Assembly (NCBI RefSeq): GCF_021155765.1
Contig: NC_060118.1
Coordinates: 8,804,001-8,868,000, forward strand
Direction: 5' to 3'
Source: Diprion similis
Taxonomy: Eukaryota > Arthropoda > Insecta > Hymenoptera > Diprionidae
DNA: 64,000 nt
The translations under genes were made by a program, and so were the position numbers. Below the pieces are notes generated by a model. That model had not been told where the DNA came from. It saw only the letters and a program-made list of their open reading frames with translations, and made no database searches. Position 1 is the stretch's first letter. Every line of letters begins with the position of its first letter. Shown piece after piece: positions 4,956 through 64,000 of the stretch.

Positions 4956-6828
4956 TTATGGTACAGAATTGATTCTTCATCTTGTTACTGGCCATGCTTT
5001 CACCTTCATATGGAATCCAGATGCTGAAAATCAACTTTGAAGAAAACTCTCCTGTTCCTGGTCATTTAACCACTTTTACTAGGAAACCAAGTGGTGTTCA
5101 TAATTGACTCGATGTTGAAGAGCATCCAAAATCCACCAGAAGTTGAAGCACACCTGCAGAGAAGTTTCAAGCACTATGGAACAAATGTTTTAATCTTCAT
5201 GGGACTTTGGATGGATCCAGAAACAAAAGCGATCTAGAATCAATGTCAATTACAAGTACTGCCAAATGACGAAGACCTGAAACATAGAAATTGAAGGGGA
5301 AAGATGGAGACCAAAGCAAAGCGTTGAGGATACCACTAATTTCAATTGATGGAAACATTAGGTCCAGCTCCCTGGAAAGATGGACCTTCGATGGAATTCA
5401 AAATGGCCTCGCGCGAGGAGCGATTACACTTGGCGATAAGCGAGTAGATATCGTTTGTGTTTCTGCCGCTCGTTACGCGACCGTTGTAATTAAGCCGATA
5501 ATGATTCCTCGCCGCCTCATGCCGCACAACCTTCGCCGGTATGCAACTGCCATTTTCGATTCTCGATAGAACCTTTCTTGTGGTTAATATACTGATCGCG
5601 TTTGAAGTTCGTCTGGAACGAATTCGATTCATTAAAAGACTGTTGCGAAGTAACCGTTGAACGATCGATTATGGGAGAGATAAAAATCATAGCGAATGAA
5701 CGTAATTGTAAGAGTATGATTGAGTCGCACTTTAAAGTGTTGTCCATTCACTGGTTAACGGAAATCACTTGAAATCGTATCGTTTCCTCGATGATTAGCA
5801 TAAGAGGAGTTGGAACAGCTGACATAAAATCATGAAACATGAGTGAAAATGCGTGATGTCGAGATAAAACGATTTCAAAGTGGATCAAATCGTGTGTGAT
5901 TCAAAAAAGCTTTTCGATTACAGACAATTGTATCTGCGATACAAGTGAAGCAATAAAGTGAATTCTATTCATCAAAATTTAGTGATATGCATTGGCTCAG
6001 ATCGAAAACTAATTTGCAATGCTGAGAAGATGATGAGAAGATTAGTGGACCAAAACTGAGATCGAATTTGATTGTGGTAAGATCGAGTTCTCGTCTGGCG
6101 ATGCGTTACAGTTTCAGAAATGGTCTGTTAAGCTACCGATGCAATCAAGCGATAGGACGATTGGCGTCCTGCAGATCAAAGGACGGCGTCCTGATCAATC
6201 CTCGAGTAATGAATACGAAAAGATTGGCAGCAATGTACAAACGTGAAGAAAGTATATCTGCATGGTCTTAGGATGTGCGCGGTGTTTTTGGGGTCTCGAG
6301 ACCCGCCGAGTGGTTGAACATTCTGGAGTGGAAATTGATTTCGGTCGACTTCCATTACTCAAAGCGGGTGGAAAAATATACCGACAAAAGTCAGGAGACT
6401 GATCCTTTGGGGATAAGGAGGCGAACTTATCCCGTTGAGTCCGATGGGTTCTGTGTCCCGTAGAAATTCTTGGCGCGTTTTGAACCAGCAGGAGCTGTGC
6501 AGGCGCAGAAAGGAACCCCGCGTCTCGCTTTAACCGTGCCGCAATGTGTCCTTCGGCAAGTACCTCCCCGAGGAGCCGAAGCACCGGATCTCCTAGGAGT
6601 ACTTTGAGTCTTCGATTACAATGATAAATCCGAGAAACTGCGTCCGCAGTTCTGATAGTTCTGATAATTCTGCTTGTCAATATAACTGGCTCATCAAGTA
6701 TTTTAAATCAAGTACGTTTGAGACGATGTTCAGTATTGGAATGAAGAAACGAGCTTTTTCAGAAATGCCGTGCAAGCGCAATAAACGCTAGGAAACTGGA
6801 ATTCGAAAGCTCCCGCAAGTCTCTAAAT

Positions 6829-7216
6829 AGCTATTTATGTGGCATTCCCGTAAACCGTCTGTTTTTTTGGCAAGGATAAAGATTTCAGGACTAGTTGAAA
6901 GCGAGCCGGAAGCGAACCGGAAGCGAGTACTGAAATTATCCGAGCCAAATAACTGTTTACGGGCATGCCACATACAATATTTTTTACGGTATGGGCATTA
7001 AGAAGCAAACCGAAGAGTGAGGTTATGTCGCGATCTGTTCGACGAAGCTACTTTATTCGCCAGTTTGGGACGCGCACTTTGAACTGCGCATCAAAACTGC
7101 GGAATAAAGACTTTATTCCACAACTTTTTTCGCTGCTGTACAAAGCGTCACTTTACGGGACGAAAACTGCCACAAAAAGTGGACTTTTCAATGCCCATGT
7201 CGTGAAAAAAAAATTT
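6829..7216 (+). mobile_element. Two-part non-autonomous inverted-repeat element, copy A
   Basis: Two short inverted-repeat units lie side by side. Unit 1 (about 6836-6971) starts TATGTGGCATTCCCGTAAAC and ends with the inverted counterpart GTTTACGGGCATGCCACATA. Unit 2 (about 6977-7213) starts TTTTTTACGGTATGGGCATT and ends with the inverted form AATGCCCATGTCGTGAAAAA. The same arrangement occurs in reverse orientation at 63189-63562. No transposase is present, so this looks like a composite MITE or SINE-like element moved in trans. An open frame crossing unit 2 is preserved between copies (see findings). Confidence 0.8.
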
Positions 7217-10200
7217 TTACTTAACCATCATAAAAAGATACATCGTGGTTCTAAAATACAGAATTTTGGATTGATTTCACGTCGCATTTTCCGGGTTCAA
7301 CAGAATGTGGATGACGACGATACTTCCCTGAGTGTAATCCAACCAGACATGGCCGAAGGCGTGTCTCCTCTCATTCATAGTAATTCATGCCGCATACGCA
7401 CCGCATCTGTGGGGAATAATTTAGTGATCGAGTGACGTCTGCGAAGAGATAGAACGAGATATGAAGAAAGAGAGAGAGAGAGGAGTGTGTGGCTGGAGGA
7501 TATGCAAAGGCGAATAAGAAGAGGGCGATCAGGATCAGGATCGGGACCAAGAGGACCGAAGTGCCGCTCCTTGCACCGGCAGAGGAGCGAAGGAAGGAGC
7601 AAAAGGGGGGGGGGGGGGGGGGGGGACAGTCGAGCCGCTGGGAGGAGAGGGGGAGGAATAGGACCCCAGTTAAGGAACACGATGCTATCGGCGCTTGTTA
7701 GCTCTCCAGACTTCCACAGCGGGGTGCATCCTCTGGCGGCGAAACCCTCCCTCCTTGCTGCCACCCTATTTCCCCCAACTAGCCGAGGATTCCGGGGTAC
7801 AACGCGTCTTTCGGCATCGCCTTGCTCTCTGCGCTATAATATACCATAAACGCAAGCATCGCAAGGAGCTTTGGAATATCGCTTGGCATGAGAACAGGTC
7901 GTTGAAGGAACGTCAGGATATGGTAACCGTGTGATAATCCAGTCGAAATTTTTTTCGATAGAGGATTTTGGCACGAGGTGGACAATCCTGGAAACTAATT
8001 TCAACCGAATTGGACGAGCTATAAATAGTTTCATTTGACCTGATGGCTGGTATCAAAAAAAGTTTATGGACTTGTTGAAGACAAGGTTAATTCAACGTTG
8101 AGTTATCTCAAATTGTGAGCAATTCGATATTTTATACCCTTTTCTTATGTCTGTCGGATTTTCTGGTTGTTTTCCAACAATTTCCAACACTTTTTCAGCA
8201 CTTTCGAAATACAATTTCGATGGTGAAAAGTTGAAATTTGGTTTATCGTTAGCCTGGTTTGTTTGCTTTTATATTTTTCGAATACCTTGGTGCTTATAGC
8301 CACGAATATGCTCACGGGTGTTGAATGGGAGACAGAGACTCACCCTAAATGGTGTTATAAAGCCGGTTTATTGTATCGTTAAAAGTAAAGCGTAATGGTG
8401 CCGATGGGATCGTGTAACAAAGTTTGTTTGGATTTCCAGGTCGAGTCTTCCCTACTGTTATTCTTCCTTCTTTTTCACCTCTTTAGTTCCCCCGCCGTGT
8501 TGTTGTTCTCGTTTTATCTGTACGTCCGTGTGTAAGGGGTACTTGCTCCTATATCACTGATACAAGTTGTGTAGCCTCGCAATGTATATATTCGTGTTTA
8601 ACATACTACGTCTCTCCCTCTCTCTCGCTCTCTTTACGTTTAGATAATTACGATGAGGTAAAGAAGAATCCATGCCGGCGAGATGGCAGTCCTTTCAACG
8701 GCCCTCTCTAAATTTGATTTATGCTGATTAAAACAGAGGAGAAATGCCGAAAGCCAGCTTGTGAGCAGGCCTTTGCAGCATGCGAGCAATATACGCTTTA
8801 TACGCACTTATACCATCTTACACAACGTGCACAATATACACGGTGTCTTCCAACTACGCCCTAATCGCGTTCAAAAGTATAACCAGATAAATCTAGTCGT
8901 GAAAAAAAATGTCCGATCCTCAATTCGTTACATTTTTAAGCTGTTTCTATTCGTGCAGCAGACAGTTTTCCCTGAAACCTGAATCAAAGCACTAGAATGT
9001 CCCACTTGAAAAGTTTGAAATCACCTTAATTCGAACTTGTTCGTTGAAAAAATTTGAAAAAATTCACGCATGCGGAAACCGATGGCAACAATTATCGCCT
9101 CAAGTTTCATCGATATTTATCAAATACCGCGAGATTTATCGACTGTTTAATAATCGTGGTAGACGCCATTTTCAAATCGGAGATGATCGGGGTCAGTTTG
9201 AGAAATTCCAAAGCACGTATTTGTTAATAATCATTAAATTTTGTACTTTATTCAGCCTGTTTGTCGTAGAAAAATAATTCCCGAACACCCTCTAGACGGC
9301 GGAGTTTAGAGCAGGGGCATTAAAATTGTAACAGAAGTCGCAACACTGGTTCAGGTAACTCGTAGTAGGTACTATGTGTATCTCTGGTCTCTCAGCTTTC
9401 GAGTCGGAACCTTTACGGCTCTCTTTCAAGTTTTTAACGAACCGCCTTATCGGCTAATTATAAAGCCACGGCTGTTGTACAAATAGCCGGGTCTTAGTGG
9501 ATGTAGCCCGATAAGGAACCCTCCTCCTTTCAGCCTCCCCGCCGCTCTCAGCTACCGGACTCCGGTGCTCCTGGTCCCAACGACATTTCCGAAAAGCATT
9601 CCTTCAGAAATTCTTTTCCACCGCGATACCGCCACTCCGTACCCTCCTTCAGACAGCTGCTCCCTCGATGACGTTTCTAATTTTTCACCTACATTTCTCA
9701 ATGTTATCGCAGTCATGTTTCTCATACTCTGTAATAGACTTTCCAAGAACCCTAAGTAGGCCGGTTCATTCGAAATTTCGTGGATTTCGTGAATCATCAA
9801 TTTCTTTCTAAATCCAGATACGAAATCTTGAGAATTTCAAATTGATCGCTTCCATTCAAGCGGACCAGGTGTACAGATTTATTTTGAGGCAGTCGGAATC
9901 AGTGATACCGATGCTAGTATTTTTTGGAAAAATCTAATCGTCCGGTATAGTGAAACGTAATTTTGATCAGGTCTTCTGAAACTCGATTAAGCTATTCGAT
10001 GATTGTATGGAGTGACGTCGGTTATGTATAATGGATAAACAAATATCTGATTTCAATTACTTGGGCCTTTAACCTTTGAGAGAAAAGTTTAATTTTTATC
10101 ACTAATAGTACAAATTTACAGGAAAAATATCCAAATTCTTACTCAAAACTTTGAATAAGTGTGGAAAAAAAAATCAAGAGCATATAACTTATACGAACAA

Positions 10201-11158
10201 GTCAGTGGGAAAAATATTTCATTCAATTATCTTTGTTAATATAAGACTAAGTTATTTATTTGAAGAATTAGAAACGTGAAACAATTAATGTCGTATCTTG
10301 AGAAAACAGATTTCTCGCCGACGAACGCAAAATCATCAATTTTTTCAATATTCATGCAATTAATCGGAAAAAAATCTCTAAGCAATGATATCGCAAAATA
10401 CAAAAACCTCGTATTTTCTCCGCTACTTCGAAAAAAAAATAAAATAAAATAACCACAGTATTAAAACTGAATTTTTATATTTTTCATTTCTCAAAATCAC
10501 CCATTTTTCAATTTCAAAATGTCACATTAATTCCATTCTCGTTTAAGTTTTCTTCAATATCACTGTTTTTCCTTCGCGCAAAAAATGGTTATAGAAAACG
10601 TGAAAAACGATCTAAAATTGCACTTCTAAAATACTCACAATCGTACGTGCAGTGCAAATAAATTAAAACGGACAGTAAAAATTTGACGTAATATTTGAAA
10701 AAATAAACCTAAATATTCAAAGTTCTTCGTGCTACGAAAATCGGCAATTTTTTATAATTTCGAGGAGCTGTCGGTCGTCGGCCAGGCACCTCTACAGCAC
10801 ATATAACTAACCTGAAACGCTTCTTGCGGATGAACACGACTCTCCGGTATTACTCTGCAGGCCACAGAGAGTGTGCTCGTGTAACGTAACGAACCTTAAG
10901 CCTATCCGGCTACTGGTTTTACGCCCCAAGAGCCTCGGGGTATGCGGTCATTTCCAACGCTCATTTTCAGAAGAACCCAAGTCCGTCTCATCTCCAGCAC
11001 ATCATCTTCATCTCACTTGCTTTCTTCCTTCTTCTTCGTCTTCGTCCTTGAATATAAATTTCTTGTTTAATAAATTTAAAAAAAAACTATACCAATGTCA
11101 TAATATTTTCATCTGTCAAATTCTGTAAATTTGATTGATTCTTTTTTATTATACATAC
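7217..11158. other. Intergenic, no gene recognised
   Basis: AT-rich DNA with a G-homopolymer at 7605-7625 and a GC-richer patch around 7480-7800, where overlapping Arg/Gly-rich and Ser/Pro-rich frames exist only because of the composition. The tract 10060-10750 is strongly A/T-rich and shows nothing recognisable. Confidence 0.6.
7605..7625. repeat. Poly-G run (21 G)
   Basis: Uninterrupted run of 21 guanines. It can form G-quadruplex structures and its length is prone to sequencing and assembly error. Confidence 0.9.
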
Positions 11159-11160
11159 AT

Positions 11161-11764
11161 ATTAGGGTGGCGCAAAAAAACCGACTACTTTTTTTTTGGT
11201 TCGTATGACAAAACGTTAGTTTTTGATGTTTTAAGAGCCCACTCCAAAGGACAGCTCAAGAAAAAATTTTAAGAGGTCACTCCAAATTTTTTAAAATGTC
11301 AGAAATCGTTAAAAAATTAAATTAAAAGAATTATATTTTCAGTATTTTGTTTGATTTTTAATTCATGCCGTGGTGTATTGTTATCGATTCTTTCTTACTA
11401 AATTAAAGAAAACAAATTTATGAAATTTTAATATGAATATTAAAAGGTAGCTCGAAAAGATCTAAAGAAATGCACCAGAAAATTGAAAAAAAATTATGAG
11501 CGACCTTTCAAAATTCAAATTTTGAACTGAAATTTTCGGAAACTTATTTTTTTTTGTCTATAAAATTATACCGTAACGAGAAAATTTTTTTTTTCACAAA
11601 TCGATTTTTGACGATTTCTGACGTTTTAAAAAATGTGGAGCAACCTCTTAAGAATTTTTTTTTTGAACTGTCCTTTGGAGTGGGCTCTTAAAACATGAAA
11701 AACTAACATTTTGTCACACGAGACTCAAAAAAAAAAAAAGTCGGTTTTTTTGCGCCACCCTAAT
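11161..11764. mobile_element. Foldback / long-TIR MITE, copy A
   Basis: The element begins ATTAGGGTGGCGC and ends with its reverse complement GCGCCACCCTAAT. The inverted arms stay alignable for roughly 170-190 bp and include the shared block GTTTTAAGAGCCCACTCC. The unique loop between them is about 220-260 bp. It is flanked by AT-repeat sequence, so the target duplication (probably TA or longer) is ambiguous. No coding potential. A second copy lies at 51903-52524 with the loop in the opposite orientation. RNA from either strand would fold into a long hairpin. Confidence 0.88.
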
Positions 11765-11766
11765 AT

Positions 11767-12939
11767 GTATATATATATATTTTTTTTTTCTTTTTCCTTG
11801 AATTTTATAGCAATACTTGCAGATATCGAATTGAATTTGGAGAAAAATGAAGTGAATTTAAATTTGTCGAGTGAATATATATATATATATATATATATAT
11901 ACAGTGTGAAAATTTAATTTAAACAAAAAATTTATAATCATGGACTGAGTTGTTGAAAAATTGTTGGTAAAAATGGGAAAATCGGTGTACAGAAAATACT
12001 TAAATAAAGAATTTAACGTCCCAAGAAACGAAGTGAGATGCGACCTTTTGGTTCTGTGGATCGAAGAAGCTTGATCTGAGATAAGAGGCTGCCGGTGAGA
12101 AACGGTTAATTTATTTACGACGCGATTCGGTTTCATTAGCATACCCATAATCCTCCATTGCGGAGCGTGCGGTGTACGGTAGTCGGTATGGGACGACGAC
12201 GGTTTATACCGGTACTAATCCCTCCGCCGTCCAATGCGGCTGTAAAAAGCGTGGAGACGTGTGTGGAGAGGGATAAAATACGCGTAGAAATAATGACCAA
12301 TATAATTGTTTTGATTTATATTGATTACGCACTTGGTTAGAAAGAAAAAACTATACGCGTAAGAATAATTAGTCGTTTCCTTTCACTTTATTCACTCTCC
12401 GTGATCGTTTTTTTTTTTTCGTTCGGGAACGATTTGATAAATTTCTTCGAATCTAATCAGTATTGTGTTTCCATTTAATTAAGTATTTTGTTTGACAAAT
12501 AAAATACGTACTAGTTTGCGTTTTTTTTTTTTTTTTTTTTCTTCTTCTTTTTGGGTTGATGTTAGGCAAATATAGTGTTACTAAACTGATATTCATCAAG
12601 CTATAGTAACATAATTGAATCGTCTGGATAGAAAAATATGCAAATTTTTTTTGTTCCTTTAATCTTATAGTCATTTGATTGGTTAAAATAATATTTTGTG
12701 AAAATTATATTAATAATTCTGCAAAATATTGTTTTAAAATAAATTTTTTAGATTCAGGATAGACTTTTGTGTAAATTGAATATATTTCTTAGTTGTAAAA
12801 TGAAATTGATCCTTGTTCATTTTGCAAGTCCGTCGATTTTTTAACGATACGTGAAATAATTTTTAATTTTTTTACACTTCATATACACGAAAATTTTTCA
12901 GAATTCAGACAAAACGGAGAATTGTAGTTAAGGTTCAGA

Positions 12940-14963: not shown

Positions 14964-15897
14964 GAGGGGTTAATCACTCATGGATTTAATGTATAAGGTA
15001 CACTTGATTTCAAGATTACAAAGGTTTCAAAAGTTCACAGAGATTTTAGGGATTTTTAAAGATTTCGAAAGGTTGAAAAAAAGTACAGGAATTTTCAAAA
15101 GATTCCAGACGATTTCAAAAGATCTCAATAGACTTCGCCTGATTTCAAATATTGCGGTGATTTCAAGAATTTGAAATGATTTCAGTGTATTTCAAAAGAT
15201 TTTTAGAGATTTCAAGAGATTAAAAAGGTTTCGGACGATTTCAGAAGATTTCAGAAGATTTCCAGGATTACAAAGGATTTCAATGATTTCATAGGATTTC
15301 AAAAGATTACAAGAGATTTCAGATCATTTAAAATATTTCGATGATTTCAAGTAATTTCAAGTGAATTTCAAAAGATTTTTACAGATTACAAAATATTCCA
15401 ATGATTTCAAAGGATAACAAGAGATTTCAGATGATTTGAAATATTTTGATGATTTCAAGTAATTTCAAGTGAATTTCAAAAGATTTTTACAGATTACAAA
15501 ATATTCCAATGATTTCAAAGGATAACAAGAGATTTCAGATGATTTGAAATATTTTGATGATTTCAAAAAATTTACATGATTTCAGTGAATTTCAAAAGAT
15601 TTTTACAGATTTCAAAGATTACAAAACCTTCGAAAGATTTCAAGAGATTGCAAATGTTTCAGACGATTTCAGGGGGTTTCAGGAGGTTTCAGAAGATTAC
15701 CAGGATTACAAAAGATTTCACTCATTTCAAAATATTTCACATAATTACAGTGGATTGTAAGAGATTACAAAAAATTCCTGAAAATTTCAAGAGACCAAGT
15801 TTCATAGACTTCAAAATATTTTAGAAGATTTTAAGACTCTGCACAAGATTCACGGAAAAGTGTTGCTACACCAGATTTCAGGGGTGATTAACCCCTC
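14964..15897. repeat. Degenerate GATTTCAAAA-type repeat array bounded by 14-bp inverted repeats
   Basis: From about 15000 to 15840 the sequence is an irregular array of short units close to GATTTCAAAAGATTT, with variable spacing. Nested in it is a near-perfect direct duplication of 108 bp (about 15340-15447 and 15448-15555). The array is bracketed by a perfect inverted repeat, GAGGGGTTAATCAC at 14964-14977 and GTGATTAACCCCTC at 15884-15897. Open frames in the array (Phe/Lys/Ile-rich) come from the repeat and are not genes. It may be a non-autonomous element with an expanded internal minisatellite. Confidence 0.75.
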
Positions 15898-31175: not shown

Positions 31176-31913
31176 TCACGGGTGCTTTGGAGGAATCGGG
31201 ATCTCGCAGGCGTAATTCCCAATGGTTTGCCGACAATCTGTAGTGTGTAGATCCTGATCAATATCCCATATAGAAACACATCCTTCACCGGTTTTAGGCG
31301 AAACAAAGTGCCATGGTATCTTATTTATGGGTAATCCTACGCAACGGAAAAAAGGATGGATTATTTAACCCAAATGTCAATGTAGACGTTACGATTTTAA
31401 ACGATCAAAACTTACCATCACGAATAGTGATCCATTCGTCGAATGCGTAATAAATGCCCACGTGTATTACCCAGGAACTGCCGATTAGCATGTACTTGTT
31501 CGTTTCTACGTTATCAGGCAGTGCTAAACGAGCACCGTCCCTTTCGCATAATTTTTTCGCTTGCATCCAGGTTACCATCCCCGACCTGTAGACCTTGTAG
31601 GCTACGCTGGAGTCAAGAATCGGGGCGTAGCCCTTCGGAAGAGGGGCGACTTCCTTTTCTCTTGGCGTGATCAACTGATGCAGTTGTTGCAGCAATATTG
31701 AAGCGCAGACCGAGACCCTCGTGTGATTGTCTTAAAGCAAAGTTTGTTACGGTTTCCTTATTCCTCCGAATCCTTCGAGGATCGCGATGTTCTCTTATCT
31801 GGATTAAGCGTCAAGCCGCGAATCACCGGCGAGGCTGATGCGGGCCAAAAAGTTCCCAGCGTCATCAAAAGGCACGCGAGCTGCAGGAGCAGCGATACGA
31901 ACCGTCCAGTCAT
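31176..31913 (-). CDS. Secreted C-type lectin (hemolymph LPS-binding protein-like)
   Basis: Minus-strand gene with three exons: 31827-31913, 31416-31674 and 31176-31336. Introns are 152 and 79 bp with GT-AG ends and phases 0 and 1; the product is 168 aa. Exon 1 encodes a clear signal peptide starting MTGRFVSLLLQLACLLM and ending near PASAS. A single C-type lectin-like domain covers about residues 50-165: TWMQAKKLC early, WITIRDGLPINKIPW in the middle, and GEGCVSIW, TTDC and NYACEIP at the end. The four canonical cysteines fall at about 72, 135, 150 and 159. No EPN or QPD triplet and no WND are visible, so calcium-dependent sugar binding of the classical kind is doubtful. Such small lectins in Hymenoptera are named hemolymph lipopolysaccharide-binding proteins and are thought to act in microbial recognition. 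The first acceptor is chosen by phase and consensus; one a little upstream is possible. It lies head to head with the proposed Notum exon 1. Confidence 0.85.
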
Positions 31914-46900: not shown

Positions 46901-47691
46901 CCCAATTAGCGGGTTCATTTTTTAGCGACTCGCCCCCTGCAGGCTGTGTTTACGAGTCCCAAGCCCGAGCAGCTCTAAACTGCTCAGCACTTGCTCCGTC
47001 TGAGTGGCTCGGCGGCAACATCTGTTTTCGAAAAAGTGAATTAATGAAGAGGTGTTGAGGGGTTAACTGCCCTACGTTCCTGTATACAATTCCTGTAATC
47101 TCATGAACCCTAGGAAACAATTTTTGTTTATACACGCGTCCCGAGCCACTCGACCCCAACTTTAAACAAGCGGAGAGAAGCCAGTGAGAGAAATTGATCC
47201 TCGGCTCCCTCGACTTCAACGTATTATGGAGGCGCCTCGGCTCTGAGGGACGCCGCAGTCAAAGATCAACCACCCGCTGTGAGACGGGCTTTCTCAGATC
47301 TTTTGACTGTATCATGTCCAAAGAATTACTCTCGTGAACCTCGATTAGTCAAAACAATCCGTCCTCAGCTTCATGCGGAGTTCAATCCAGAACAAGACGA
47401 GATAGGAATGGAAAAAGCTCTCTGAACACTTTTCTAAATCGGCCTGTATAATGTTGTCACAAAAATTCAGAGTGCGTTAATTTTCACTACGTGTGTGAAT
47501 TTTTCAAGTCCTTATCAGTGTGATGATAAGATATTCTCATTCTCATTTGCGTTTATAAACCCAGCTCTGACACTTGTTTGTTAAGAAAAAAAATATGTTT
47601 TTGCCACGGTTGATCCGTTTTGGCGAAGCATCATATTGCGAAATTCGACACTTGTCGTATTTTTGTTTTATACGTATATACTCTTTTTCAG

Positions 47692-50254
47692 ATATCGCTG
47701 GGCATCGCGGTGTTCACCGTTTTGGTCTCCGCTGAAAACAAAGCGACGAACACTATCTCATTGTCGTCCGGAGCCTCGCCGGTCATCCAGAGTAACACGA
47801 TTCAGAAGTTTATTGAAGTGCTGGGAAAGTATGAGCTCGAGGATCAACGAGCCCTGAAAAGAGTCTACCTCAGCAACAGGTCAATAACGTGCAACGACGG
47901 ATCTCAGGCCGGATTTTACCTGAGAAAATCTCAGGGCTCCAAACGGTGGGTCATATTTCTTGAAGGCGGTTGGTACTGCTACGATCACAGAAGCTGCAGG
48001 AACAGATGGCTCAGGCTCAGGCACCTCATGACTTCTACACAATGGTCGGAGACCAGAGATGGTTAGTGTGAAAAAGATTCTTCGCTTCAATATGTTGAAT
48101 TAAGTTGATTTCTTGGGTATGATGGTCGAAGTACAAAAACAAAACTGCAGTTAATTGTTAACGTTTCTAAACTGAAATTCAGTCAACCTAAATTCTCCAA
48201 ACTGCTGACATCGAATCTGAAATCAGGATTTTGACACTCGAGATGTTTTTGATTCACCGTATTACAGATATGATGTTTTATTTCAAGTATAAGAGTTTAA
48301 AATCTCGAATCTACAATTCGTGTTAATAGCTGAAATTAAAATCCGCAGTTGGTGGCCTCCTGTCTTCACGCCCGGAGGAAAATCCTTTCTGGTGGAACGC
48401 CAACCACGTGTGAGTATAACTTTCCTCAGTTTCTGCATAAAATAGGGGATTCTCTCTTGAACAATCCCAAACAAAAGTCCAAAAAACAATTCTTCAGATT
48501 CTCTGTTCCTTGTTGCAGATTCGTGCCCTACTGTACAAGCGACACGTGGAGTGGCAGCAGAGCGACGCCAAGTGACATGTTCTCATTCATGGGAGCGGAG
48601 ATCGTGGCCCAAGTGGTAAGGGACTTGATTCCCTTGGGCCTGGAGAACGCGAGCTCACTCCTGCTGGCCGGAAGCAGCGCCGGAGCAACGGGAGTGATGC
48701 TGAATTTGGACCACGTGCACAGCTTGGTCCACCAGGAGCTGGGTGAGACTCATAAACAATAAACTCGTCACGAACTTGGCTCGAAACAGCTTTCGAACGA
48801 ACTCTAAAGGCTCCTCTTCTCGGTCTTCAGGGTTAAAACACATCGCAATACGCGGGGTCAGCGACTCCGGATGGTTCCTGGACCGGGCCCCGTACTCTTC
48901 CAATGGCCTACCTGCCACCGACGCTGTCCGGAAAGGCATGGAGCTCTGGAAAGCCAAAATGCCCCGCAACTGCGTCCTCAAGTATCCCCACGAGCCGTGG
49001 AGATGCTACTTTGGCTACAGACTGTATCCCACACTCTCCGGTAAGTCAGGAGCCATTGATGTCCGAAGTCTGGACTTGGTGGTGGTCAGTGTCCGCAGTT
49101 AAATTTGGTCAGAACCAAGTCCTCGAGGGTCTTTCGAAGCGGCAAAACCGTTCAATCTTTTTCCAGTGCCTCTTTTCGTCTTTCAATGGATCTTTGACGA
49201 GGCCCAAATGACCGCTGACAACGTCGGAGCACCAGTGACGAAACAGCAGTGGGACTACATTCATAAGATGGGTGACAGCTTAAGACAGACTTTCGAGAAT
49301 GTGACGGCAGTCTTTGCACCGAGCTGCATTAGCCACGGAGTCCTGACCAAGAAGGACTGGCAATTGGTCAAGATCGATGAAGTCTCGTTGCCACAGGCGC
49401 TTCATTGCTGGGAGCAAACGTCACTTGGAAATAAACGTAACGAGTGAGAATCGTTAATTTGTATATCTTCTGCGGGGTACATTCGACGAAGAACCGTTTC
49501 ATGACCAAAGATCGCCGCATTTATTCTTTTCACAGAAATAATCGTGACCACGTCGAAACAAATCAGCCCTGCGCAAAGTCCGCCAGAAAGCTGCTTCGTT
49601 CGGGCCCAACGAAGGTGAACGGCACCTTTTTGGACGGTGGTAAAATCCGGAACGGTTCCGTTTCGGAGTCCAGGAAGAACGGGCTGGACGGTGGAGGTCC
49701 TGCCGAGGAGAGAAAGGGGTCTAACAGTCCGTCGCAGGGTGGACGAGCCGGGAACAAGAGGCGACGAAGAAAAAAACATAAGGGTCGAAGGAGGGAACGA
49801 AACAAGGATGGTAGACAGAAGAAGGATAAGCAGGAGCGGAGGCGAGGAGGTTGGTAGTTTGCACGGTTGGCTCAAAAATCGTCGGAATTTTTCCTAACGA
49901 CGCCATTTTTCGTTTTTAGGACGAAGGCACGGTGGCAGGTACGGAAACAACCACACGGCCATGCTGAACGGCACGAGGCCACAACGATCGGTGATACCTT
50001 CGAACAAACGGAAGTGCGGTCAGGGCTGCCAATTCCGTTTTATCGAACGCTGCACTTGGCCACAGTGCAATCACAGCTGTCCACGACTCCACAATCCATT
50101 CACAGGCGAGGAAATGGACTTTATCGAACTCCTCAAGAGCTTTGGCCTCGACATGAAGAGCGTGGCCAACGCTTTGGGCATCGACATACAAACCTTAAAC
50201 AATATGGACCATGACGAACTCCTCAATCTTCTCACTCAACAATCGCCCAATTGA
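47692..50254 (+). CDS. Notum: Notum, palmitoleoyl-protein carboxylesterase (exons 2-8)
   Basis: Secreted alpha/beta hydrolase that removes the palmitoleate from Wnt ligands and so switches off Wnt signalling outside the cell. Exons: 47692-48061, 48349-48409, 48519-48742, 48831-49040, 49167-49443, 49536-49849 and 49920-50254; all introns are GT-AG and in phase. With the proposed exon at 33818 the protein is 602 aa. Diagnostic segments are FLEGGWYCYD, NPFWWNANHVFVPYC and the nucleophile motif LLLAGSSAGATG (Ser near residue 203). Also present are RGVSDSGWFLD, the acidic FQWIFDEAQ (Asp near 305), APSCISHG (His near 351) and the C-terminal NPFTGEEMDFIELLKSFGLD. Nearly all of exon 7 and the start of exon 8 encode an insertion rich in Arg/Lys/Gly (about 387-500) between the hydrolase core and the Cys-rich tail. 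The donor of exon 6 was set at GA|GTGAGA because the earlier C|GTAACG leads to a stop. Confidence 0.95.
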
Positions 50255-51867: not shown

Positions 51868-51902
<35 letters not shown>

Positions 51903-51907
<5 letters not shown>

Positions 51908-52524
51908 GGTGGCGCAAAAAAACCGACTATTCGTTTTTTTTGAGTCTCATGTGACAAAATGTTAGTTTTTGATGTTTTAAGAGCCCACTCCATAGGACAG
52001 TTTGAAAAAAAAAAAATTTTAAGAGCTCGCTCCACATTTTTTCAAATGTCAGAAATCGTCAAAAATCAATTTTTTTTTTTTTTTATTTTTTTTATCGTCA
52101 CGTTATAATTTTATAGACAAAAAAAAAACAGGTTTCCGAAAGTTTCAGTTCAAAATTTGAACTTTGAAAGGTCGCTCATAATTTTTTACCAATTTTTTGG
52201 TGCATTTCTTTAGATTTTTTCGAGCAACCTTTTTATATTCATATTAAAATTTCATACATTTTTTTTTCTTTTATTTAGTAAGAAAGAATCGATAACAATA
52301 CACCACGACATGAATTAAAAATCAAACAAAATACTGAAAATACAATTTTTTTAATTTAATTTTTTGACGATTTTTGACATTTTTTAAAATTTGGAGTGAA
52401 CTCTGAACATTTTTTTTTGAGCTGTCCTTTGGAGTGGGCTCTTAAAACATCAAAAACTAACATTTTGTCAAACGAGACTCTGAAAAAAAAAAAAAAAAAA
52501 ACGGTTGTTTTGCGCCACCTTAAT
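51903..52524. mobile_element. Foldback / long-TIR MITE, copy B (inverted relative to copy A)
   Basis: Begins ATTAGGGTGGCGC and ends GCGCCACCTTAAT, with inverted arms of about 170 bp or more sharing TTTTAAGAGCCCACTCC. The loop matches copy A (11161-11764) as its reverse complement; for example AAGAAAGAATCGATAACAAT here corresponds to the reverse of copy A near 11390. It is inserted at the end of an AT microsatellite. Non-coding. Confidence 0.88.
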
Positions 52525-53711
52525 GTATATAATGTATATGTATATGTATACAAATATAATTATATGTGTACATATATATTATTGTTAGAGAATAGCGGAG
52601 GGAAGCAAAACGCAAGAAGGAAAAGAAAAGAAAAAAAAACACGAAGAAGAAAAGTGAGAAAGAAAAGTAAAGCAGACCTGTATTTAACAATTGTAAAATA
52701 TGTAATCTCGTAATATTATTTATTTTTAAGTACCTGTACTTAACGGACGAACAGAGCCCAGTGTTTATCGGTTAGCCTAGGCCTATGCGAGTACTCCATT
52801 TACTAATTTATTGTTTTAAAACATAGGTATAATATAAATATCGTGACAAATAAACGAGCACTGTCTTGTCGAAGAATATACATATTCGTCTTTCGTGTAT
52901 AATTACTGCCCTCGATTAATTAATCTGTAACGTTGAAGTATGATGAAACGTGATTACAACAATAATTCTGAAACAAGTATGAAAAATACTTTCATCCCTA
53001 CGTCGTCAAAAGTATAAAACTTTTGTTTCGTGATATCTCTATTCCTACTTGTGAACAATCTCGTTACCAGTTTAAACAATTTATGAAAAACTTTTCTGCA
53101 TTATTATTATTATTATTATTATTATTCAAAACAAATTATATCGTCAACTTCGTTATGATTGATTTTTTTAGATTCTCACCAAAGCTCACTTTTGTTGGGA
53201 ATATTTTTGTCATCTTACCATACTTTTGCCCTCACCCTTTCTCAGGACAGGATACGGTGCCCATCAATGTTACCGAATCCTGGTGGGTCGATGGATGCGG
53301 ACGCGCGAGTGTCAACACCGACGTAAAATCATCAACCAGTCCCCCCCTGGTCGCGGTTATCTGGATATGATAATTCGATGGAATAGCTGGGGCACTGAGG
53401 TCTGCGGGTGGGGCGACGGAGCGTCCTCTCAAAATAATATCCTGACACACAGGAAACGGTATTTAGTGCACCACCCGAGGCAGCGGCGGGCCCCCCAGGC
53501 CCGAGAGCATGCAGCCAATTGAGGCGACCGAGGAAGTGACAGAGGATGGCACAATGTCGTTGAATATGTTCCATTAGTCCGAACCGCGTTCTACTCGCTG
53601 CGAGGTTCACCACCGGCGGTCGGACGGTCGCCGTTAAATATTAACTCTCGATCGGCGCACTTTTATCCGAGGAAAAAATACAGGCCACAAGTGATAATTC
53701 CAGGAGTCGAG

Positions 53712-57189: not shown

Positions 57190-58162
57190 ATGGAAGACGA
57201 ATCGTGGATCTGGTACGGTTGGTGGTCAAACGTTCTCATCCTCAAGATGATGACGTTCACGTGGTGTACTGGCAGGCTTCGAGTGAGCAGAAAGGTAGGA
57301 AACATGGTGACATGAGCCTTTAATGACAATGAAAACTGTGACAACTGGTGCTAAGGTACTCCGCTTTGGTATGGTTGACATGCTTGGCTCTGACGTCATT
57401 GCTCAGAATAACTTTGGTCTCAAGAAGTCATGTAAGAAAAATTTTTCTGAACATGTATAAAATTTCCATTACTAAATACTGTTGCAATGATATAATGATA
57501 TCCACTAAAATTTTTGGGTTGATTAAATCATTTTTTAATGGATAACTAAGTGAAATAAAGGTACACCCTGTAAATTGAATGTTGATATGACAATTCAATT
57601 GACAGAAATGTAACAAATAATTCAAACGTAAAGTGAACCTGCTAGGCGTTATGTGTAGTTATATTTTTCTAACAGTCTATTGTTAAATTAACACTACGTA
57701 AGAGAATCGTCCGTAGACTTAGTCCACACGATAGATCTTACGATTTTTGTAACTAACGTTTTATCAAATTTAATTGAATATCGAATTTTGAGTGATTTAT
57801 TTAACAATAATATTCAGGTGATCCATAGTGAAGCGGACCGAATATTCGTCAAGGAACCGGATGTCATCCTTGATCCAACGGGTGGCGGTCATCCGGATAT
57901 TGATCGCATAAGAGCAGCACATCGCAGCGATGTTGAGACTGTACTGCCATTTTTGTTGGTGGCGTTAATTTGGTTGGAAACTTCACCGTCAGTGGACTCA
58001 GTGAAATTGGTTATGCGCAGCTTCTCGTTGGCGAGAATTTTCCACGGTTTATTTTACATGGACGTCATTCCCGTGCATCAGTTTGTCAAAGTATTCACTT
58101 CACTCTTCAGCTACCTGGTTGCAGCTTACGTTGCTTTTTCGTGTGTTGTACATTATGCTTAA
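57190..58162 (+). CDS. Microsomal glutathione S-transferase 1-like (MAPEG family)
   Basis: Membrane enzyme of the MAPEG family that conjugates glutathione to lipophilic electrophiles and reduces lipid peroxides in the endoplasmic reticulum. Two exons, 57190-57294 and 57818-58162, joined in phase 0 (AAG|GTG), encode 149 aa, the usual length for MGST1. Exon 1 gives the first transmembrane helix (SNVLILKMMTFTW). Exon 2 has the conserved cytosolic loop DPDVILDP-DIDRIRAAHRSDVE, where the R-x-x-H-x-x-D-x-E pattern is the MAPEG signature. Three further helices follow: TVLPFLLVALIWLE, FSLARIFHGLFYMDVIP and the C-terminal LFSYLVAAYVAFSCVV. The gene lies between a secreted PLC-X protein and a chemoreceptor, same strand, about 1 kb from each, with no sign of co-transcription. 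Polyadenylation signal at about 58430-58435. Confidence 0.9.
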
Positions 58163-58435: not shown

Positions 58436-59254
58436 TTTAGATATCTATGGATATTTGTAACCAAGGAAAAGCAAAATAGAAAAAGTCAGAAAGTCGACTA
58501 GATGAAGCTGTTAAAAGGTGAGAATTTGGTGTGTATTTAGCGCTAATGGACCTTACATACATAGAATTGACTGAAACGTGGATTATTTATTTCATACAAT
58601 TTTAAGGCGCCTACACCGTTCTTAAGTCATAAAATGTACTTGGTATCAGGCCTACGATCAAAAGTTATTAATTCAACGAGTAAGAAGTAATCGAGAATTC
58701 GAACACGCATGTGGCCAAAGCTTTAAGGTCACCCTCGTCGACTTTAAACTTTAAGCCATTGATCAATCCACACTGGCGTAGACGTATCAAAACGACTTCC
58801 AAAGGAGGTGAAAAGGCATTAGAAGAAGAGAACAGCTCCGATATGTTCGAAATATAAATGCCTAACAGCTGGTAGAACTGCATCGATAATTACAGTAAAT
58901 CATTTGTTGAAAATGAGAATAAAATTTTTCACAAATTATGACTGCAGGCTACCTGCGTCAATGATATTCTCACGAGAACAATTTTTCCTTCACACCATAA
59001 TCGGCAGTGTTAATTGAGGGTCCCAATGATCGACTTTTGTTCGTGATTAGCGGTTGCGTAGGGGTGATTAACGTTAATAACTAAAGAGAGGTATTACTTT
59101 ATGCAAACTACTCCGTAAATTTTTCCAACATTCTTCGTTTTCACTTTGCCGTGGTCAAAACGACCGCACTGTAACTGCAATCCTACTTTATCCTTAATAT
59201 TGTTAGCCTTCACCTTGATTCATATCTTCTGTATTAATTCGCTAAATCTGCAGG
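58436..59254. other. Intergenic, upstream of the gustatory receptor
   Basis: About 800 bp with no convincing exon. It presumably contains the receptor promoter, but no element could be singled out. TAA stands in frame four codons before the receptor ATG. Confidence 0.45.
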
Positions 59255-61801
59255 ATGTACAGAAACAAGGACTCCTTTACGGGGCGCATGGACGGCCCGA
59301 AGCTCTTCAAGATTGAAGACCAACGTTCGGCACCAGTCGAACCCTCCAAACCTGCAATTTTTCTCGGAGTACAAGCTCGGGGCAACACGCCAATGGTCAC
59401 GGTGGGTCCGAAGTATGAGCGGAAGAATCAGTTCAGTTACAATGAAGACAGGAGACCGGAACAGGACGGGAAACTGCTCGACAAGTTCGATCATTTTTAC
59501 GACGACACGAAGGTTCTGCTCATCCTATTTCAGATAATGGGCGTCATGCCCATACAGCGGGGAATCGGTAATTCATATTCGAAAGTTTAATGCGCTTCAA
59601 GCCTGGTCAATTCGTGGATTGTTTCTCCTAACCGTAGGCAATACAAGTACACTCAAGTGAAAACAAATTTTGCACGCCAAATTCTCGGCTTTCAGACTTT
59701 TGCCGTGGATGAAATTGCGACGCAAGAATTCTTGCCATCGTCTTGTTTCGCGTGAAATAACGCTGGGTGATCATTGACTGATGCTAAGGATTGTACCGTG
59801 AAAATGAAATTGCAAGCGTGTTAGAGGCGGCCATGTTGGTCTTGCAAATTAAAACATTTGAATATACTTGTGATACCTTCAGTCGAGCTTAGATTTTACC
59901 TACGTTTTTTTATGCTCAACACTTTGATGTGTGGAAAATATCGTAAAAAACGTAACTTTAATCGTAATTACAATTAGTGATTCCGTTTTCTGCGTGTTTC
60001 AAATATCAGGAACGACGACTTTCGAGTGGACCTCAACCGCGACCATCTACGCGATGTGTTTGTGGGTAGCTGAAACGGTGGTTGTGATCCTGGTGGGCAG
60101 AGAGCGAATAGAGAACACTTTACAGCCCGACAAGCCCTTCGACGAGTACATATACAATATAATTTTCCTCTGTATTTTGACGCCGCATTTCCTGCTACCA
60201 ATTGCATCATGGCGTTACGGGGGAGAAGTGGCGAAGTACAAAAACATGTGGACGCATTATCAGGTATGTTTTATCCTCCATATAATTCGGCCATGATTGT
60301 TTGTTGTTTCACTTGGATATATTTCATTTCGTCGTATTGTCAACAGCTTCGATACTACAGAGTGACCGGCTCAATCCTTGAGTATCCGAACTTGAAACGG
60401 ATGTGCATTGCGCTCTGCATAATCTCTTGGCTCATTTCAATCGGCGTTGTGGTCTCGCAGTTTTATTTGCAGCCTGGTTTCACAATTTGGCACACATCCG
60501 CCTACTACCATATCATCGCTATGTTGGACTGCCTGTGTGCTCTGTGGTGGATCAATTGCACCGCCATTGGCTCCGCATCCAAAGGACTTGCACTCAACCT
60601 CCACAAGGTATCTTACAAGGCAACTTATTATTTTGACTTTACCTTCGTCTTTCAATGATGTTGAGAGCTGCGTTTCCATAATTTCTTTGTCCTCGTTCAG
60701 GCTCTTGAGAACACAGAATCGGCCGATCTTCTCGTCGAATACCGAGCTCTGTGGCTAGATCTGAGCCACATGATGCAGCAGCTTGCTAAAGCTTACGCTA
60801 ATATGTACGGTGGGTCAGCTACTTGATTTCAGAACCTTTTTATTCATCTTCACTTAGCCCAGATCATTATGGATTCTTGATCATGGTTGAAAAGCTCATA
60901 TTTCACTTGATTAACACGAAATGAAAGAATGAACAAGATTTTCTCTAGCTAAAATTAATTCTCAAGAATCTTCCATTCCATAAGAGTGTATTCAATGGGT
61001 GACTTGACCTGGTTTTTACATCCCTTATAGAATCCAATTATCCTCTATATATTCTTATGTATACATATTATAATGATACATTGCATTCTAATATATCAAT
61101 TCCAGGAATCTACTGCATGATCATGTTTGTCACGACAATTATCGCTGGTTACGGAGCGTTCTCAGAAATTCTTGATCATGGCTTCAGCCTGAAAGAGCTC
61201 GGACTTTTTGTGATCGTCGCTTACTGTACGGGACTCTTGTACATAATATGCAACGAAGCAGATCACGCAACGCGGAAAGTTGGTCTGGATTTTCAGGAAA
61301 GATTGCTGAACGTCAATCTGGCTGCAGTTAATGCCGAAACGAAAAAAGAGGCAAGTTGTTGTTCGTTATTCGCTTCGAATTCACGATGCAAAAAATAATT
61401 TGTATTTTTGTGTGACAGGTGGAAATGTTCTTGGTTTCGATTGCCAACAATCCTCCAGTTTACAGTCTGAATGGTTACGCGGTGATAAACCGAGAACTTC
61501 TATCGTCCGTAAGTAATTTCAACTAACATTGACAACTTAGTTTAAAAACAAGAAGCAACTGCAAAGAATAACAAAGAAGATAATAAGCGAATGCTTATTA
61601 TGAATACTGAGAGAAAAAACTTTTTCTGAAACTACAAAAAATACTTTATTTCAAATCGGAAATATATCTTTACAGAACCTCGCTACGATGGTCACATACT
61701 GGGTCGTACTTATGCAGTTCAAACTGTCATTAATCCGGAGAGGAACAGAAAGCCCAACGACCACGATATTCAACTTGACCGCAGCTATTGACTCATCGTG
61801 A
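59255..61801 (+). CDS. Gustatory receptor of the carbon-dioxide subfamily (Gr21a/Gr63a, 'gustatory and odorant receptor 22-24' type)
   Basis: Seven-helix insect chemoreceptor. Seven exons: 59255-59567, 60010-60263, 60347-60607, 60701-60809, 61106-61350, 61419-61508 and 61676-61801; 465 aa, all phases agree. Subfamily marks: LLILFQIMGVMPIQR (about 88-102), DEYIYNIIFLCILTPHFLLP, ASWRYGGEVAKYKNMWTHYQ, WHTSAYYHIIAMLD, DLSHMMQQLAKAYANMYGIY, LFVIVAYC, FQERLLNVNL, EMFLVSIANNPP, and the C-terminal family motif TYWVVLMQF (about 431-439). Similarity as I recall it is strongest to the mosquito GPRGR22 / Drosophila Gr21a lineage, but assignment within the three CO2-receptor lineages needs an alignment. 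In flies and mosquitoes these receptors work as heteromers sensing CO2; no partner subunit is in this window. Intron 5 is of GC-AG type (GAG|GCAAGT at 61351). Probable polyadenylation signal at 61906. An in-frame TAA upstream supports the chosen start. Confidence 0.93.
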
Positions 61802-61905
61802 TTTCGAAAGTTGTAATTGATTAATTGGTTTTGAATTCTTAAAATTTACTGCACAAACATGATATGATTACTGCTACAAATGGAATGTAAAAAGATTCAG
61901 TGCAC

Positions 61906-61911
61906 AATAAA
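61906..61911 (+). terminator. AATAAA polyadenylation signal of the gustatory receptor
   Basis: About 105 bp after the stop; the next gene converges from the other side about 500 bp further on. Confidence 0.6.
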
Positions 61912-62409: not shown

Positions 62410-64000
62410 GCCGTTTCCTAGAAGATGCTATCAGGGTGAATCGATCGGGGATGAAAACTTCGGTAACCGGTTCTCCGCCCTCCGACATCCAAACGCTACC
62501 GCTTCGGCCATGTTGGATAATTTCCACCAAAGCTCTTGCTACTACTTCAGGCCTGGTATAGTGGATGTTGAAAAGTCATGAAATGATATAATTCAAACAT
62601 AACAAGTTAGAAATGAATAATTACGTTTACACAATAGTAACACTAATTCAGGAAGATTGGAGCTATGGATACTAACTTTTGGACTGCCTGAGTCCCGATA
62701 TCCTTTATAGCCAGTTCGTAATCCACGAAAGGACCGAGATCATGACCACCGTCTTCTCCCATTGCAGTATCTGTCACGACTCCAGGACATAACGCCATTA
62801 ATCTGACACCCGTCTTCCGATGGTGATACGGTAACTGAAATTGCGATAATGGATACCTGATTCGAATGATACCAGAGGATTTTGAAACCATAAAATTTTC
62901 GGTGTATCCAATCAAAGCCTGAGTCTTAGGTCAAGAGAATTGCAATTTATATTCTTTGCGATAAGTCAAGTGTCAAATCGTATCTCTGATGATCAATCTT
63001 ACTCCGAAAGATCTGGTCAGCCCAACTACACCATGTTTAACTGCAACATAGACTGGATACCAAGGTGAAGGATCGATGCCAGCTGCAGAAGAAATGTTGA
63101 CTATAACGCCACCCTTGCCACCCTTATTCTTTCCCATGTACTTCATGCCGAGCATCGTTCCTTGTACGACAGCGTTCTAAGCGAAGGAAAATAATTTTTT
63201 ACGGCATGGGCATTGAAAAGTCCACTTTTTGTGGCAGTTTTCGTTCCGTAAAGTGACGCTTTATACGGCAGCGAACAAAGTTGCGGAATAAAGTCTTTAT
63301 TCCGCAGTTTTGATGCGCAGTTCGAAGTGCGCATCCCAAACTGCCGAATGAAGTAGCTTCGTCGAACAGATCGCGACATAACCTCACTCTTCGTTTTGCT
63401 TTTCAATGCCCATACCGTAAAAAATGTTGTATGTGGCATGCCCGTAAACCGTTGTTTGGCTCGGATAATTTCAGTACTCGCTTCCGGCTCGCCTTCAGCT
63501 CGTCCTGAAATCTTTATCCTTGCCAAAAAAACAGGCGTTTACGGGCATGCCACATAAATAGCTATTACAAGTGTATAAAGATGCGGTATAATAGAGTGCG
63601 TGTGGTTTTAGATACTCACAAAATTGACGTTCATCATCGATTTCCAGTTTGATTCATTGAGTATTCCAGCGTTATTGATTACGATATCAATTCCACCAAA
63701 TTCCTTGACAGTTTTTGCGAAGGCGGCTGAATGATAATTTCAGAGATTATCAGAAACGAACTACCACTTTAATTGTTAGTGATCATTGACAGGAACCAAA
63801 AATTGACAACGCGGAAGGTAAAATGAAGATTTTTGTTCAATTCCAATGCCCTCAATTTTAATCTATGATTCATTACGTTGAGACTAAGCTGCACTTACCT
63901 TCGAATTCGTCAGCCTTCGTGACGTCACAAATGATGAATATTGCATGTCCTTCACCAAATTCCATGTTCAATTTATATGCGGATTCCACGCCTGGAGAAG
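62405..64000 (-). CDS. 15-hydroxyprostaglandin dehydrogenase-like short-chain dehydrogenase (3' part)
   Basis: NAD-dependent oxidoreductase of the classical SDR family. Minus-strand exons, in transcript order: 63899-64000 (runs off the window), 63620-63726, 63003-63176, 62677-62834 and 62405-62552. They give 228 visible residues; the N-terminal cofactor-binding glycine motif lies beyond 64000. Visible marks are FIICDVTK, IDIVINNAG (the NNAG motif), the serine region VIVNISSAAG, the active-site YxxxK as YVAVK in PVYVAVKHGVVGLTRS, CPGVVTDT after the substrate loop, and the C-terminal GRSGSVWMSEGGEP segment typical of insect 15-PGDH-like proteins. The donor of the fourth visible exon is GTTAGT and joins CAAAA|G in phase 2. 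The third intron from the right edge (63177-63619) contains the two-part mobile element copy B. The true substrate in insects is unknown for most members. Confidence 0.93.
63189..63562 (-). mobile_element. Two-part non-autonomous inverted-repeat element, copy B (intronic)
   Basis: Reverse-oriented relative of 6829-7216, inserted in an intron of the SDR gene. Unit 2 spans about 63195-63425, bounded by TTTTTTACGGCATGGGCATT and its inverted form ending CCCATACCGTAAAAAA. Unit 1 spans about 63430-63556, bounded by TATGTGGCATGCCCGTAAAC and its exact reverse complement. The first unit-1 repeat here is more perfect than in copy A, suggesting a younger insertion. Its strand matches the host gene, and splice sites of the intron are outside it. 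Confidence 0.82.

Follow-up and report, generated by a model that had tools for sequence, protein, structure and literature searches.

The locus raises the question of whether an intact subunit of the insect carbon dioxide receptor is encoded in a genome that most likely belongs to a sawfly (Hymenoptera, Symphyta); to our knowledge, bees, ants and wasps are without a CO2 receptor. The window, by which we mean the whole stretch of 64,000 nt that was analyzed, corresponds to C14:8804001-8868000 of a genome (G000) of 269,008,206 bases in 60 contigs. This genome was searched by protein query and only the best candidates were scored, so that gene counts given here are minimum values. We consider it very likely (probability of about 0.87) that the window carries a functional, single-copy Gr1 (the ortholog of Gr21a) of the CO2 receptor of a basal holometabolous insect, most likely a sawfly, and that its product would form, with Gr3, one heteromeric channel gated by CO2/bicarbonate.

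Splice-site testing of the window resolved 59255-61801 on the forward strand into a seven-exon gene for a complete gustatory receptor, with a start ATG at 59255, a TGA stop that ends at 61801 and no internal stops. A sequence-only reading of the same DNA had described a complete 465-aa open receptor; its length, start and stop hold for the spliced product, but not as a single open reading frame, as the coding sequence is divided by six introns of 68-442 bp (five GT-AG and one GC-AG). The features of the gene are as follows:

59255..59567, + strand: Gr1 exon 1, residues 1-104 and the first base of codon 105, with the start ATG, the N-terminus and the first hydrophobic stretch
60010..60263, + strand: Gr1 exon 2, to residue 189, with tblastn matches to Gr1/Gr2 proteins
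60347..60607, + strand: Gr1 exon 3, residues 190-276
60701..60809, + strand: Gr1 exon 4, residues 277-312 and the first base of codon 313
61106..61350, + strand: Gr1 exon 5, to residue 394, with a tblastn identity of 70.7% to Aedes Gr1 across 82 residues
61351..61418, + strand: Gr1 intron 5, GC-AG, 68 bp, AAAGAG/GCAAGT...GACAG/GTGGAA, with the donor AG/GCAAGT at 61351
61419..61508, + strand: Gr1 exon 6, residues 395-424
61676..61801, + strand: Gr1 exon 7, residues 425-465 and the stop TGA
61694..61720, + strand: TM7 signature TYWVVLMQF (TYhhhhhQF), residues 431-439, without the Glu after TY, unlike sugar receptors
61906..61911, + strand: AATAAA polyadenylation-like signal, 105 bp past the Gr1 stop

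The N-terminus is the least certain part of this model: because the ATG comes directly after a splice-acceptor-like sequence (judged by eye), a further exon upstream is conceivable. The exons are much richer in G+C (48%, and 59% at third positions) than the introns (34%). The gene is flanked upstream by a MAPEG-family gene (57692-58159, + strand) and downstream, on the opposite strand, by a short-chain dehydrogenase (62976-63739, - strand).

The only Pfam family found for the window protein at E up to 0.001 is 7tm_7 (E 6.7e-48, 164.3 bits against a cut-off of 26.6, residues 86-441). For finer placement we used 13 published proteins (five Gr1, four Gr2, four Gr3) from the 39 in PMC3011840; this set omits most drosophilids, Culex and Aedes Gr3, and D. 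willistoni Gr21a replaces that of Drosophila melanogaster, whose printed text is one residue short. Across a 369-residue core the window protein is 57.5-61.8% identical to the five Gr1, 44.7-47.6% to the four Gr2 and 27.5-30.0% to the four Gr3 proteins. According to PMC3011840, the core transmembrane region of CO2 receptors can be aligned across the three lineages at 25% identity or more, and all 13 comparisons lie above that level (27.5-61.8%). The published TM7 rule is TYhhhhhQF, with a Glu after TY in sugar receptors (PMC6938034); the window protein reads TYWVVLMQF from residue 431, without that Glu.

The sequence-only reading had assigned the gene to the CO2-receptor subfamily and proposed a phylogeny with Gr1, Gr2 and Gr3 proteins as a check. 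In a maximum-likelihood tree with the 13 references and no sawfly sequences, the window protein falls inside the CO2 clade and within the Gr1/Gr21a lineage (100/99), in agreement with that assignment. It branches outside the beetle, moth and fly Gr1 proteins (99/95; 98/96 in the tree with the Gr3 ortholog described below). We also rooted the tree, taking as outgroup three further gustatory receptors from this genome, with rows L001 and L005 omitted; by tblastn at E 1e-3, no outgroup row matched a CO2 protein. In the rooted tree the window protein stays in Gr1 (99/99) and a split sets all CO2 proteins apart from the outgroup receptors (99/98), although the Gr3 rows are not recovered as one group. 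A clade with Gr2 was rejected (p-AU 0.0122), and a grouping with beetle Gr1 received p-AU values of 0.0554 and 0.0165 in two tests. The protein keeps 148 of the 176 columns that are invariant across the five Gr1 proteins, and of 42 columns that distinguish Gr1 from Gr2, 29 show the Gr1 state and 4 another state. Three points count against the preferred reading: the nine remaining columns of these 42 carry the Gr2 state, the protein deviates at 3 of the 35 columns invariant in all 13 references, and support for the Gr1 group falls to 87/99 (93/99 in the rooted tree) when a long-branch third gene of the genome is added.

The window protein thus shares with the Gr1 lineage (Drosophila Gr21a, Aedes Gr1, Bombyx Gr1, Tribolium Gr1; PMC3011840) the common core and the TYhhhhhQF-type motif, and differs from its beetle, moth and fly members in its outside position, an N-terminus of its own sequence and its six introns. 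Receptors with solved structures (PDB 8jm9 and 8x82, labelled sugar taste 43a, and 8zdz, labelled Gustatory receptor) belong to the same channel superfamily: a profile that includes the window protein matches them across the last third of the protein (E 2e-06 to 4.1e-05). These values, and the best E of 0.04 that the window protein reaches alone, point to other lineages. In prokaryote genomes and viral contigs 155 and 270 stretches fit a pattern, none of them related, as expected, and six peptide strings looked for in published text gave no match.

With the window protein as query, the 13 rows obtained from its own genome comprised itself, Gr3, the third gene (on contig C2) and a weak gustatory receptor, and none was a second close Gr1. 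A gustatory receptor at C14:12847150-12847524 was set aside as too distant (17-23% identity). The sequence-only reading had seen no companion subunit nearby, and had suggested that partners lie elsewhere and that the genome be searched for the other two lineages. Indeed, all 64 tblastn rows for 14 queries (E up to 0.01) fall inside 59200-61850, with no other CO2-subfamily piece in the window, and neither the following 60 kb nor the 80 kb around Gr3 holds a Gr2 at E 1e-3 (tblastn). A Gr3 (Gr63a) ortholog, found with Bombyx Gr3 as query, lies on the same contig 3.86 Mb from the window Gr1 (C14:12724846-12726725). It is intact, with eight exons, 435 aa and a 7tm_7 match (E 5.9e-30); its intron 2 is GC-AG by the best model (L028 at 2440). 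It is placed inside the Gr3 clade (100/100) and outside the beetle, moth and fly set (98/97), although a grouping with beetle Gr3 was not rejected (p-AU 0.102). Separately, many 7tm_7 exons cluster at C14:6025710-6086129, on the window contig, as a gustatory receptor array.

The search for the remaining lineage gave a different outcome. Gr2 is present in mosquitoes, moth and beetle and absent in Drosophila. None of the ten rows listed for Bombyx Gr2 as query (a sequence whose N-terminus is missing) is a conserved Gr2: some are exons of the window Gr1, at an identity of up to 51%, others belong to Gr3 or to the C2 gene, and one weak row on C14 is the gustatory receptor that the window protein also met. 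Between insect orders, published Gr2 proteins share 59.4-73.5% identity, so nothing found is close enough for a Gr2 ortholog.

In the window Gr1, the introns after residues 104, 189, 276, 394 and 424 share column and phase with five introns of Gr3; once the third gene is included in the alignment, the first of these is shifted by five columns between Gr1 and Gr3. Judging from these positions, the five common introns most simply arose before the lineages diverged. In number this is in line with Robertson & Kent (PMC3011840), who inferred at least five ancestral introns and at the time knew of no gene that had kept all of them.

The third gene (C2:21128341-21131571, loci L052 and L047) has seven exons with good splice sites and an intact frame for 386 aa. 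Its Pfam matches are to 7tm_7 (E 2.5e-17) and Trehalose_recp (E 6.9e-05; its 22.1 bits exceed the cut-off of 21). Its identity is 22.5-27% with Gr1 and Gr2 and 19-20% with Gr3, and it keeps 21 of the 35 universal CO2-receptor columns. Four of its introns match those of both Gr1 and Gr3 in column and phase; its intron 1, likewise of phase 1, is displaced by several columns because of gaps, and the residues that flank it correspond. The rooted tree places the gene inside the CO2 set (95/96), although placement with the outgroup receptors was not rejected (p-AU 0.108), and we regard it as probably a member of the CO2-receptor subfamily. Its nearest neighbor is Gr2, with weak support (63/64; 73/64 in the rooted tree), and a clade with Gr1 or with Gr3 was not rejected either (p-AU 0.422 and 0.153). 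At the 42 columns that separate Gr1 from Gr2 it shows 7 Gr1 states, 6 Gr2 states and 29 others; two traits lean toward Gr2: the loop that reads DHG-FSLKE in Gr1 is longer, and in the TM7 motif the tyrosine is not preceded by a threonine. The gene could be a Gr2 that has been transformed, a relic of greater age or, with lower probability, a receptor of some other kind.

It is possible, at somewhat less than even odds, that the conserved Gr2 was lost in parallel to Drosophila and that the CO2 sense relies on Gr1 and Gr3 alone or has as a rapidly evolving third subunit the product of the C2 gene, which would be a transformed Gr2 or a remnant of an older, larger CO2 subfamily. If true, receptor erosion would have started before the complete loss in Orussus and Apocrita. 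The literature searched, to which the key sawfly papers do not belong, yielded no statement on Gr2 or on a divergent third member in sawflies.

As to the insect itself, the branching of Gr1 and Gr3 outside beetle, moth and fly fits Hymenoptera, and likewise any earlier lineage. A 119-aa piece of Orco scored 209 bits against the Orco of PDB entries 6c70 and 8v00, which we take to be that of a fig wasp, 196-198 bits against four more Orco chains (one carries the label Drosophila bipectinata) and 172 bits against ApisOrco, presumably that of an aphid, in a library that covers few orders. Fourteen contigs of 10.9-28.0 Mb hold 264.5 of the 269.0 Mb (eight of the 46 others, which were sampled, are at most 250 kb), so that n = 14 is likely, a number that some Diprion have. 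Seven chromosomes are given for Neodiprion lecontei (PMC10542623), so the present genome is probably that of another species. Of ten contigs whose first 6 kb were inspected, three begin with long CCTAA arrays, and the remaining seven, some of which have runs of N, show fewer copies or none; TTAGG telomeres are reported for sawflies (PMC8977481) and are common to many insect orders. The window has a GC content of 39.8% and a CpG observed/expected ratio of 1.27. No single one of these traits establishes Hymenoptera, and the case for a sawfly, while likely, is indirect.

We find it unlikely that the gene, while a real Gr1 ortholog, comes from some other early-branching insect outside Hymenoptera in which the receptor would be expected. 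TTAGG is the ancestral insect repeat (PMC8977481), the outgroup placements of Gr1 and Gr3 would also suit a non-holometabolous insect, and the tests above did not reject a grouping of Gr3 with beetle Gr3 (p-AU 0.102), nor firmly one of Gr1 with beetle Gr1 (0.0554, 0.0165). Such an origin is at odds with the size of the subfamily, as termite, cockroach and thrips have 25, 36 and 30 members (PMC6175461, PMC7570057) compared with at least two conserved and one divergent here, with the highest Orco score going to 6c70/8v00, and with a genome of 269 Mb and a window GC of 39.8%, which are within or near the sawfly values in the table of PMC10542623. Far less probable is a pseudogene, an assembly error or contamination from another insect. 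The one non-canonical intron of Gr1 would speak for it; GC-AG introns with a GCAAGT donor are, however, a known splice class, and one also fits the Gr3 gene of the same genome. The frame is open from end to end, the gene is embedded in a contig of 14.3 Mb and its intron places recur in Gr3, all of which argue for an intact resident gene.

The preferred reading, a sawfly Gr1 that acts in CO2 sensing, rests for its function on analogy with characterized receptors. Gr1 would be one subunit of a heteromeric ligand-gated cation channel with the Gr3 from the same contig; the channel would be opened by CO2/bicarbonate and would sit in sensory neurons of the antenna or palps. Among seven combinations of Hyphantria receptors in oocytes, only GR1+GR3 and GR1+GR2+GR3 answered CO2, the latter more weakly than the pair at 200 mM or more (PMC11172650), and Drosophila Gr21a and Gr63a gave bicarbonate currents together and, more weakly, each alone (PMC10756536). 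In Helicoverpa in vivo all three subunits were needed; mosquitoes are reported in the same source to respond still after Gr2 knockdown, and Diabrotica larvae to need Gr2 (PMC12693517). Given the requirements in Helicoverpa and Diabrotica, the failure of the search to find a conserved Gr2 counts against our reading. It also lends some weight to a retained receptor retuned to another odor or taste, with no part in CO2 sensing, as does the view that not all subfamily members of cockroach and thrips are CO2 sensors (PMC6175461, PMC7570057). We nonetheless think such retuning improbable, slightly more so than a non-hymenopteran source, because Gr1 and Gr3 are both conserved and orthologous and such a pair suffices for CO2/bicarbonate responses in the moth and fly assays cited.

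The sequence-only reading had taken the gene, if the genome is a sawfly's, as a sign of retention before a loss in Apocrita; the literature precedes it on the retention and corrects it on the place of the loss. According to the passage on these receptors in PMC10542623, orthologs of Gr21a and Gr63a are present in Neodiprion lecontei and CO2 receptors are seemingly preserved in Cephus cinctus (citing Robertson et al. 2018), and they were not found in Orussus, a parasitoid sawfly, nor in Apocrita, which would place the loss before Apocrita. Retention in sawflies is therefore already known, and the window gene is a further, largely expected case, likened to those of N. lecontei and C. cinctus by published statements rather than sequences. 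That passage names the Gr21a and Gr63a lineages and not Gr2, which matches the Gr1 and Gr3 without a conserved Gr2 in the present genome. An antennal study of two Sirex species placed one receptor of each near a CO2 lineage, with a support of 0.59 (PMC7945326). The present gene adds a chromosome-level case to the reported retention in plant-feeding sawflies, and makes available for expression tests intact models of Gr1 and Gr3, with five introns common to both lineages; the missing canonical Gr2 makes stepwise receptor loss in Hymenoptera testable across sawfly families.

Rfam and tRNA scans of the 64,000-nt window returned nothing. Elsewhere in the window, pieces of a Pectinacetylesterase domain in four open reading frames, one of them below the cut-off, mark a gene at 47614-49444, presumably a Notum-like carboxylesterase. 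Two weaker matches, both below the cut-off, are a fragment of a ligand-gated ion channel at 480-800 (E 0.00014) and a C-type lectin fragment at 31408-31731 (Lectin_C, E 0.011), which is uninformative on insect order. The sequence-only reading had drawn its suggestion of a sawfly from the type of a neighboring lectin. A degenerate tandem array with a 10-bp unit, TTTCAAAAGA, and a higher-order unit of 108 bp occupies 15093-15835. A dispersed repeat of ~390 bp is present at 6826-7217 and 63188-63566 (copies 91% alike), and, judged by eye, a similar repeat lies within intron 4 of the divergent C2 gene (L052/L047). An element of ~640 bp occurs in two copies in opposite orientation, at 11150-11780 and 51887-52530 (87% alike); with its inverted ends of ~170 bp, termini GGTGGCGCAAAA and position beside TA/AT runs, it looks like a MITE.
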